Below, in pieces: positions 13,374-49,953 of a DNA stretch of 53,270 bases. Position 1 is the stretch's first letter. Each line of letters opens with the position of its first letter. The position numbers and the translations under genes were made by a program. The notes beneath the pieces are model-generated. The model saw only the letters and a list, made by a program, of their open reading frames with translations. It was not told the DNA's origin and did no database searches. This DNA is from Candidatus Nitrosocosmicus arcticus (GTDB lineage Archaea; Thermoproteota; Nitrososphaeria; Nitrososphaerales; Nitrososphaeraceae), in the NCBI RefSeq assembly GCF_007826885.1, contig NZ_ML675594.1:1-53270 (forward strand). Direction: 5' to 3'.

Positions 13374-13676
13374 TTGTGTGTCCTAGTAGTAACCCTCCTT
13401 TTGTTTTAAGCAAGATTTAGCTAAGCAGCCTACCTGAGTGTACGTACGGGTTCCTAACTCTGTTTGGCCTTTCTCCACCTAGGTCGACAGTTTCACTCCA
13501 AGATTGAAATCACTCAGATTATTAATCATCATTGCCTTTGATCTCAACTGGATTCTTTTCTATTTCGTTGCCAGAAGTCTCCTTCTAATTATCGCTAATT
13601 CAGGTGCCCGTAGTGAGGGAGGAGTTTCCTCTTCGTTATATATTACCCGAAGTAACTTGCTCGCTAGCTCACAAGT
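13374..13676 (-). ncRNA. rnpB: RNase P RNA
   Basis: Catalytic RNA of RNase P, which trims tRNA 5' leaders. On the minus strand it shows the universal conserved blocks in order: CR-I GAGGAAACTCCTCCC (about 13635-13621), the core GTGAAACTGTCGACC, GGAGAAAGGCCAAACAGAG (about 13474-13456), GGTAGGCTGCTTAGC (about 13430-13416), and a CR-V-like ACAAAAGGAGGGTTAC near the 3' end whose GAGGG can pair with CCCTC of CR-I as helix P4. The ends are set by TTGTG...CTAG (5') pairing with CTAG...CACAA (3') as P1/P2, giving about 303 nt; ends may be off by several bases. It lies between tsr3 and the NSUN gene, all on the minus strand. Confidence 0.85.
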
Positions 13677-20714: not shown

Positions 20715-20812
20715 CGGGCCCGGAGGGATTTGAACCCTCGGCCTGACGCTTAGGAGGCGTCCGCGCTATCCATTATGCGCCTTTGATAATCCAAAGTCTG
20801 CGCTACGAGCCC
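20715..20812 (-). tRNA. tRNA-Arg(CCU) with a D-arm intron
   Basis: Read on the minus strand. Acceptor stem GGGCTCG/CGGGCCC (with a G-T pair), then TA, D stem GCGC, loop ATAATGGATA, GCGC, anticodon stem GACGC/GCGTC with loop CTCCTAA (anticodon CCT), variable AGGCC, and T arm GAGGGTTCAAATCCCTC; discriminator G at 20715. CCA is not encoded. The cloverleaf is perfect only if a 23-nt insertion in the D arm is removed: GCGC occurs twice, flanking AGACTTTGGATTATCAAAG. Length without intron is 75 nt. Confidence 0.93.
20777..20803 (-). other. Noncanonical tRNA intron interval
   Basis: The 23-nt intron lies within this interval. The direct repeat GCGC at both edges (20800-20803 and 20777-20780) makes the exact splice phase ambiguous by up to four bases. 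The intron core CTTTG-GATTAT-CAAAG forms a 5-bp hairpin, the element expected next to a bulge-helix-bulge substrate of the archaeal splicing endonuclease. Confidence 0.8.
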
Positions 20813-47643: not shown

Positions 47644-49953
47644 TTAATTGCCTTTTGATGGTAAGATCAGTGTAAACTCGGAACCTTCAATTTTGTTATT
47701 TCTATCGTAACAATTTTTAGCCCATATCATGCCCTTGTGCGCCTCGATTATTTTTTTTGAAATGTACAATCCCAATCCTGTTCCTTTCCGTGATTTTGAT
47801 ACAAACTTTGTGAATAGATTGGGTAGAATTTCTGGATCTATCCCGCTCCCCGAATCACTAATGGTCAATCGAATCTCATGGGTTGCCATGTTCTCATTTA
47901 ACCGCAGAGTGATTGTCCCCCTTTCTGTAAATTCAACTGCATTCTCTAAGATGTTCATGATGACCTGAATTATTCGTGTTCTATCAGCAAATACAAATCC
48001 ATAATTTCTATTGCTTTCAGGATTAATATTATTGCAACCATTGAGTCTGGAATCGTACAGAATTTCCAACTGATTCTTATTTAAGAGATGTATATTATTA
48101 TTGTATTCTCTTACAATTTCTATTACAAGTTTCTCTAAATTAAAATTCTCTTTATTTAGTATCAATAACTCATTTTCTAGTTGGGTAACATCCAATACTT
48201 TATCAATCAAACGTGCAAGCCTCTTTGTGCTCTGATTCATAGTAACAATAAAGTTACTATATTTTTCGATGTTGCCCTTGGTATTCATCAATATATCGGA
48301 AAACCCTAATAATGATTGCACAGGGTTTCTAAGTTCATGCGCCGCAATATTAATAAATTCTTTCTGTAACCTGTCTTGTACTTTTAGTTTATCGTATAGT
48401 TCCGCTTGATTCCAAAGAGCTTCAAATATAGACGCATATGATTTAGAAATCCTGTGACTATTTGAATAGGATGAAAGTCCAATAGACTCAACCATATCAA
48501 TCGAAGGTATATTTTTTGATTCGATTATCAATGATTTATTCTTATCAACAATTAAGAATCCTATCTCAGTAAATAACCTGCTGTTTAAAATTTTCAATTT
48601 AAAATTTTCGACATCCTTAAATTGAAATTCCATCGGGACCCCACCAGAGTTAGAACTGCCAGGAATATTTCCATTAAATTTATCAAACAGTGTCAAAATT
48701 TTGTGCTGCATTTCATTATCAGTTTCCTCAACGATAAGGATTCTGATATTTACATTCTTTTTTGATTGAGCGATATTCTTCATAAATTCCATCATTCCCG
48801 ATTCTACCTGTCTCAAAAATGAATTAAAATTGGGAAGAATGCCTAAAATTTCATATTTAGCAGATGATATCAACGTACGAATCAATTTCACTGACTCCTC
48901 AGGATCATCGATTGTCTCTATAAACGATAATTCGGTCTCCTCTTCTAGTGACTTTATGATTCTTTCTGGATCTTTGCTATTCTTCCAAAGCTCTTCAAAT
49001 ACATTTGTGAAATGATCTAGATATGATGGGTCATTACTATACAAAATACTATCAGTAGGATCGTTTTCTCCTGTTCTCTTAACAGATATAATAAGATCAG
49101 AATTACTGACAGTGTAGTCGATAGAAGATATATCTTTGCTATGTCTAATTTGTATTCCTAAATTCAGAAATTCTTTAATTATTTCTAGATTGTCTCTATT
49201 GATCTCGACAAGGATTCGTATTCGTTTATGCGCATTTATCCCCTCCTTTTTTAATGCATGTGTTATGGACTCAATAAGATAATTTTTGTTAATCTTTAAA
49301 CCGTCTATGGATGTACAAATATTAATTTCAGGAGAATTCCGTACTATCCGCCCTAACTCAGTTTCTATTAAGGAATCACTAGATTCTGTAATTAGTTTTG
49401 TTTCATAATATTTGATCCCTTCTTTTAATTCTTTAATCTTTTTTTGGGCAACTGTAGCATTTTTCCACAAAGTATCAAAAATAAATTGTCCCTGAGCAAC
49501 TACTGCGTCTACATTGCTGTAGATTACCTCTGTTAATGGCTGTGCTTCTTGAAGGACTGTAGTAGCCATGTACTCGGATTCATTTATAGCGATACCACCT
49601 TTAAGACCATCCATGTGTCTTAATTCAGTTACAGTTTTCACCAATTCCTCGCAATATTGTAGATTCTCTTTGGTGATTTCGGTTATACACCTAATTTTTC
49701 CACCCCTTTTTAGAATATCCGCGTAGCCATTGTAGTATTGTGGGATTTCAATCACTATTGAAGGAGCTTTATGATCAAATGTAATATCCATCTTTTGTTT
49801 AACATTTTTCATAAATTCTACTCCTTTTCCTACCGCATTTTTAGCTCCATATAATATCTGCGTATTCTTTTGCAGATGAAGACCATGAGTGGGTAATGAT
49901 TTCTCATCATATTCGCCTGGAGCCATGGATACACAAAAAATTACTATTGACAT
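47644..49953 (-). CDS. Soluble sensor histidine kinase with three related sensor modules
   Basis: 769-residue kinase without membrane segments. The dimerisation/phosphoacceptor box has H539 (IAAHELRNPVQSLLGFSDIL). The ATPase part has N671 (MNILENAVEF), DSGSGIDPEILP and KGTGLGLYISKKI. The first 520 residues contain three modules, each ending in YSN followed exactly 14 residues later by F-[DE]-x-LW: Y145/F159, Y305/F319, Y496/F510. The stretch before residue 10 is doubtful: ATG 49926 (MAPGEYDEKS) is the likelier start because the TATA-like TTTATATA at 49954-49962 gives initiation close to it. No response regulator is adjacent, so its partner is elsewhere. Confidence 0.9.
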   Translation of the reverse strand: MSIVIFCVSMAPGEYDEKSLPTHGLHLQKNTQILYGAKNAVGKGVEFMKNVKQKMDITFDHKAPSIVIEIPQYYNGYADILKRGGKIRCITEITKENLQYCEELVKTVTELRHMDGLKGGIAINESEYMATTVLQEAQPLTEVIYSNVDAVVAQGQFIFDTLWKNATVAQKKIKELKEGIKYYETKLITESSDSLIETELGRIVRNSPEINICTSIDGLKINKNYLIESITHALKKEGINAHKRIRILVEINRDNLEIIKEFLNLGIQIRHSKDISSIDYTVSNSDLIISVKRTGENDPTDSILYSNDPSYLDHFTNVFEELWKNSKDPERIIKSLEEETELSFIETIDDPEESVKLIRTLISSAKYEILGILPNFNSFLRQVESGMMEFMKNIAQSKKNVNIRILIVEETDNEMQHKILTLFDKFNGNIPGSSNSGGVPMEFQFKDVENFKLKILNSRLFTEIGFLIVDKNKSLIIESKNIPSIDMVESIGLSSYSNSHRISKSYASIFEALWNQAELYDKLKVQDRLQKEFINIAAHELRNPVQSLLGFSDILMNTKGNIEKYSNFIVTMNQSTKRLARLIDKVLDVTQLENELLILNKENFNLEKLVIEIVREYNNNIHLLNKNQLEILYDSRLNGCNNINPESNRNYGFVFADRTRIIQVIMNILENAVEFTERGTITLRLNENMATHEIRLTISDSGSGIDPEILPNLFTKFVSKSRKGTGLGLYISKKIIEAHKGMIWAKNCYDRNNKIEGSEFTLILPSKGN

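Follow-up and report, generated by a model that had tools for sequence, protein, structure and literature searches.

A soluble orphan histidine kinase of Candidatus Nitrosocosmicus arcticus with three predicted inactive PLD-like modules of TrmB effector type ahead of its kinase core

A 53,270-nt stretch of the genome of the soil-type ammonia-oxidizing archaeon Candidatus Nitrosocosmicus arcticus (assembly size 2.64 Mb; the whole stretch is called the window below) encodes a large protein whose annotation ends at 'histidine kinase' because no Pfam or NCBIfam model covers its sensor region. The question raised by the locus is what this region is made of and how it might act on the kinase. The gene and the domains of its kinase core are as follows.

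47644..49953, minus strand: soluble sensor histidine kinase of 769 aa, an orphan (ORF with ATG start; orthologues 83-89% identical in Ca. Nitrosocosmicus genomes)
48172..48366, minus strand: HisKA/DHp domain, residues 530-594, with phosphoacceptor His539
47656..47985, minus strand: HATPase_c domain, residues 657-766, with boxes N (667), G1 (700), F (713) and G2 (724)

The kinase core is intact, a box check having found H539, N667, DSGSG700, LFTKF713 and GTGLGL724 all present, that is, the H box with its phosphoacceptor histidine and the N, G1, F and G2 boxes of an orthodox (HisKA/HATPase_c) kinase. As the original prediction had stated, no transmembrane segment is found in the 769 residues (the highest 19-residue Kyte–Doolittle mean is 1.06), and the gene product is a soluble (cytoplasmic) orthodox histidine kinase. 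Among archaeal kinases 62% lack membrane segments and 72% carry PAS or GAF domains (PMC6944256). When the kinase itself was scanned with Pfam, NCBIfam and PADLOC, no trustworthy match appeared N-terminal of the core (weak matches to Spermine_synth, GDH_ACT1 and Cas11a in the sensor region were discarded): the Pfam scan of the query alone returned HisKA and HATPase_c only, with no significant family in the sensor region and no match to the N-terminal winged HTH of TrmB (PF01978), and phmmer against the PDB matched the kinase core alone.

The sensor region carries a two-part signature, YSN followed by F[DE]xLW, which the original prediction placed at residues 145/159, 305/319 and 496/510. These positions are exact, the distance from Tyr to Phe being 14 each time by regular expression, and the three copies, delimited by regular expression and by alignment of homologues, are as follows.

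49465..49521, minus strand: signature 1, Y145-S-N-x11-F159-D-T-L-W163
48985..49041, minus strand: signature 2, Y305-S-N-x11-F319-E-E-L-W323
48412..48468, minus strand: signature 3, Y496-S-N-x11-F510-E-A-L-W514

Within the 769-aa protein F[DE]xLW occurs by regular expression at 159, 319 and 510 only, a fourth YSN (at 565), inside the DHp domain, has no F[DE]xLW partner, and three of the four tryptophans in the protein are motif tryptophans. An origin of the motif by chance was rejected, as composition leads one to expect the full motif 4e-7 times per protein and three copies at about 1e-20. The signature is kept in orthologues that are 83-92% identical and also in paralogues. When 75 homologues were aligned, the motif Trp was present in 75/75 in each of the three modules defined below (M1, M2 and M3), Phe in 74, 74 and 68, Ser in 74, 72 and 63 and Asn in 61, 63 and 48 of the 75 respectively, while Tyr was strong in M1 (62/75) and M3 (61/75) and weak in M2 (13/75). 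In a loosened form, [YW][ST][ND]-x11-F-x-x-[LIM]-W, the signature also closes the effector domain in several regulators of TrmB type that belong to other families of the phylum, and it therefore does not serve as the fingerprint of a ligand of this kinase. It is the C-terminal strand-loop-helix of a PLD-like half-domain and mostly a signature of the fold. The modules themselves are as follows.

49399..49860, minus strand: module M1, residues 32-185, predicted inactive PLD-like/TrmB-effector-like half-domain
48919..49386, minus strand: module M2, residues 190-345, predicted PLD-like half-domain, including the match to MitoPLD
48388..48918, minus strand: module M3, residues 346-522, predicted PLD-like half-domain adjoining the kinase, with TrmBL2 as best structural match

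M1, M2 and M3 are homologous, the products of an old triplication. Their sequences have less than 20% identity with one another (19% for M1/M2), and the weak similarity noted earlier outside the signature is thus a fair description at the sequence level. Such low identity would suit three unrelated folds that have a short motif in common by convergence, but the profile matches are collinear and full-length, one secondary-structure order is predicted throughout and the structural neighbours are common to the modules, so that we consider convergence extremely improbable. BLASTP with single sequences alone already aligns M1 with M2, and hhalign gave a probability of 99.7% for M1-M2 over 142 collinear columns, 92.5% for M1-M3 and 93.2% for M2-M3, again collinear across nearly the whole module. 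With insertions removed the profile-profile values for M1-M2, M1-M3 and M2-M3 were 99.7, 73.7 and 92.5, and in every pair the real score exceeded the best of 25 block-shuffled control profiles (92.6, 36.0 and 31.6 in the same order), by a narrow margin for M1-M3. These matches and controls led us to reject a lack of homology between the modules. Among the homologues 111/114 modules match best to their own module type, and the triplication therefore predates the spread of the paralogues; M1 and M2 form the closer pair, and M3 is the transmitter-proximal module.

Structure prediction bears on the same point. It had been proposed that unrelated folds for the three segments would overturn the idea of an old internal triplication with divergence; instead, an AlphaFold2 model of residues 25-522 (pLDDT 85, built on an alignment of 75 homologues) runs three times through the order beta-alpha-beta-alpha(alpha)-beta-alpha-beta-beta-beta-beta-alpha, which, together with the profile-profile comparisons and the best matches by module type, bears that idea out. 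With a pTM of 0.47 for the three-module model, the relative packing of the modules is not readable from it. The top Foldseek matches of the sensor region are enzymes of the PLD superfamily (best E 1.5e-11), at TM-scores for the whole sensor model that are low (0.2-0.3), as would be expected if the relative placement of the modules differs from that in two-half PLD enzymes. For M3 with the start of the DHp domain Foldseek placed TrmBL2 first (8.8e-6), followed by the TrmB sugar-binding domain 2f5t, NucT, Nuc, Zucchini and FAM83, the match to NucT having the highest target-normalized TM-score of that search (0.67). A profile of the sensor region matched MitoPLD in the PDB (3.4e-5, aligned to M2). 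Pfam searches over the 75 homologues found PLDc_2 in 40 (best 2e-9), DUF6879 in 27, Regulator_TrmB in 12, DUF7436 in eight and FilR1_middle in five, it being noted that the listing threshold was 0.1 and that many single matches are weak; we take these recurrent families to be PLD-like or TrmB-related. The predicted models show the alternating beta-alpha half-domain of the PLD superfamily and, judged from homologues and predicted folds together, each of the three modules is a PLD-like half-domain of the TrmB/TrmBL2 effector type. The sensor described originally as of a type that could not be named can thus be named, as an inactive PLD-like half-domain, and the accompanying mention of TrmB-like regulators pointed the right way.

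Among the closest known systems, TrmB/TrmBL2 regulators (PF01978 HTH plus PF11495 or a PLD-like effector domain) have the half-PLD fold in common with the kinase modules, and several end in a similar [YW][ST][ND]-x11-F-x-x-[LIM]-W helix, but they are one-component proteins with an N-terminal DNA-binding HTH, whereas here three modules precede a histidine kinase output; like the kinase, some TrmB-type members from Thermoproteota have such modules in tandem, two in number. The PLD single-half nucleases Nuc, NucT and MitoPLD/Zucchini resemble the modules in fold and in the collinear profile match, but the kinase modules are without the HxKx4D catalytic motif, which is absent from the whole kinase and occurs in 3/75 homologues in chance-like positions. 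The modules are pseudo-enzymes or binding domains. FAM83 DUF1669 and other pseudo-PLD domains likewise have an inactive PLD-like fold, DUF1669 being a eukaryotic scaffold without a fused kinase. Soluble archaeal PAS/GAF kinases also place a cytoplasmic multi-module sensor before HisKA-HATPase; here PLD/TrmB-like modules stand instead, a type not found among the sensors listed by PMC6944256 or PMC5847659.

PLD-like domains can have other roles, in binding nucleic acid or as purely structural units: TrmBL2, which M3 matches best in structure, is a chromatin protein that binds DNA, and the likewise matched FAM83/DUF1669 is a protein-binding scaffold whose inactive pseudo-PLD domain has a non-enzymatic role. 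The modules might accordingly be scaffolds for protein or nucleic acid, the kinase being switched by a partner protein or by RNA or DNA in the PLD-like cleft, and the family does include free-standing modules without a kinase that could serve as partners. Against this, the matched TrmB structure (2f5t) binds sugar in this type of domain, the tandem occupies the usual position of a kinase sensor and M1 has invariant polar residues, and we think a scaffold role unlikely. The free-standing forms are a 237-aa ORF with a lone M1 and a zinc-finger-like tail (L071) and a 363-aa ORF with M1-M3 (L080); it is possible that they act as partners of the kinases or as decoys.

The most conserved polar residues of the sensor lie in M1.

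49615..49665, minus strand: M1 conserved patch N97, C101, R112 and H113, candidate pocket or redox/metal residues (from conservation)

In the alignment of 75 homologues C101 is kept in 74, R112 in 72 and H113 in 75; N97 and H113 are invariant columns there, and N97, C101 and H113 are invariant in a second alignment. On this conservation M1 is our candidate for ligand or redox sensing. The multi-input sensor of the original prediction is one option, but the three modules could also comprise one ligand site plus scaffolding, or could be pseudo-dimers, and may respond to three signals, to one or to none. The gene lies in a block encoding a CDC48-type AAA ATPase, an M48 protease, a DJ-1/PfpI protein, a zinc alcohol dehydrogenase, the kinase, a rhodanese and a UDG-like protein, most of which is conserved around the Nitrosocosmicus orthologues (the alcohol dehydrogenase is missing next to orthologue L169). 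Retention of C101 and H113 over very divergent paralogues, and the syntenic DJ-1/PfpI, zinc alcohol dehydrogenase, rhodanese and M48 protease, would fit modules that are redox or metal sensors, in which Cys101/His113 react with oxidants, electrophiles or metals. However, no equally conserved Cys is found in the aligned stretch of M2 or M3, the kinase and its neighbours do not form one operon, and the rhodanese was found beside the kinase only in the closer orthologue loci (L039, L167 and L172) and not in the more distant L168-L170; we hold it unlikely that the modules are dedicated redox or metal sensors. Elsewhere in the window, both on the minus strand, are the archaeal RNase P RNA (13378-13672; RF00373, 165 bits) and a partial tRNA-like Rfam match of 36.5 bits (20723-20778) that was not called by ARAGORN and is possibly an intron-containing or degenerate tRNA gene.

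How a change in the modules might reach the kinase is suggested by the AlphaFold2 model of M3 with the DHp domain, in which a single helix extends from the FEALW segment to past His539.

48283..48456, minus strand: continuous helix predicted over residues 500-557, leading from signature 3 across the linker and into DHp helix 1 (AlphaFold2, pLDDT about 75-95)

As the last helix of M3 is predicted to run unbroken into the kinase helix that bears His539, M3 would sit directly on the transmitter, and the predicted continuity supports a putative direct mechanical coupling between the two. No receiver (REC) gene is present on the contig of the window, and in three complete Nitrosocosmicus genomes about 50 kb or more separates the orthologue from its nearest REC gene; on these grounds the kinase is an orphan. 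It thus lacks the adjoining cognate response regulator that is usual, though not obligatory, for orthodox kinases, whereas for several paralogues in the genome a single-domain REC gene is no more than about 3 kb away. One paralogue (L174, G000:C3 60.5-62.3 kb), of 1029 aa, has a hydrophobic membrane-like N-terminal part before M2-M3-kinase and a receiver-domain gene 68 bp downstream; L174-like proteins occur in G001 and G013 (L176 and L178).

We consider it probable that this is a soluble kinase in which three dead PLD-like modules of TrmB type serve as the sensor, M1 senses and a helix relays the signal through M3 towards a REC protein. One or more modules, M1 (N97/C101/H113) most likely, would bind an intracellular small molecule or react to redox state, and the change would travel along the module stack to M3. 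The C-terminal helix of M3, with FEALW, is predicted to continue as DHp helix 1, so a rotation or tilt of M3 relative to its dimer mate could change how well the ATPase domain reaches His539 and, through this, the phosphorylation of an unlinked, stand-alone REC protein.

The distribution of the family was followed with the sensor region. A search of genome contigs with the single protein reached no further than close orthologues and the core of one bacterial kinase. Sensor-region matches occur in 60/61 genomes of the organism's own family and 28/120 of its class, and among 299 sampled genomes of the phylum every strong kinase-coupled match falls in one of two families (f1 and f2), both within the order to which the organism belongs; within this sample of its own phylum the kinase-coupled family is found only in Nitrososphaeria. 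Those weak matches elsewhere in the phylum that were examined are TrmB-type proteins with the PF01978 HTH, several of them with a tandem of two modules. L151 and L157, likewise from other families of the phylum, combine a TrmB HTH with two PLD-like modules in tandem and, after these, CBS domains. The fetched reading frames comprise M1-M2-M3-kinase (76), M1-M3-kinase (six), M3-kinase (five), M1-M1-M2-M3-kinase (three), M1-M1-M3-kinase (one) and the 1029-aa protein with M2-M3-kinase, and these counts are biased by the query, itself a three-module kinase. All kinase architectures have M3 next to the kinase save the M3-HK forms L082 and L084 (about 160 residues between), and the modules upstream of M3 vary among related kinases. 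In one M3-kinase ORF of 500 aa (L083, identical to L179) a short Cys-containing N-terminal segment (FKCSLCGKSL...) replaces M1-M2. The genome of the window has about 10 intact kinases with M3, and degenerate remnants of module/kinase genes with stop codons (G000:C4 123752-124024, C4 148718-148873 and C2 24024-24859) suggest that gain and loss of these kinases are ongoing. A more than ten-fold expansion of arCOG02391 receiver proteins has been reported in the lineage (PMC7603488), which fits an enlarged set of kinases and receivers; equating arCOG02391 with the kinase family itself was dropped, as it is named CheY, response regulator (PMC12254950).

The sensor types given in reviews of archaeal kinases are PAS, GAF, Cache, MEDS, PocR and membrane types (PMC6944256, PMC5847659), and a search of the open-access literature found no histidine kinase described as having a PLD- or TrmB-like sensor. 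With the evidence about evenly poised, soil ammonia-oxidizing archaea may have turned the effector domain of TrmB into a freely combinable sensor cassette for two-component kinases (M1n-M2-M3-kinase), expanded to at least 10 kinases per genome, whose tandem would be a stacked allosteric relay for one or several intracellular metabolites and a cytoplasmic alternative to PAS/GAF arrays. The signals sensed by ammonia-oxidizing archaea are almost wholly uncharted, and a name for the sensor fold, boundaries for its modules and the identity of the one that touches the kinase make ligand screening and work with chimeras possible. One type of ligand-binding domain would then join one-component (TrmB) and two-component signalling in the Archaea.
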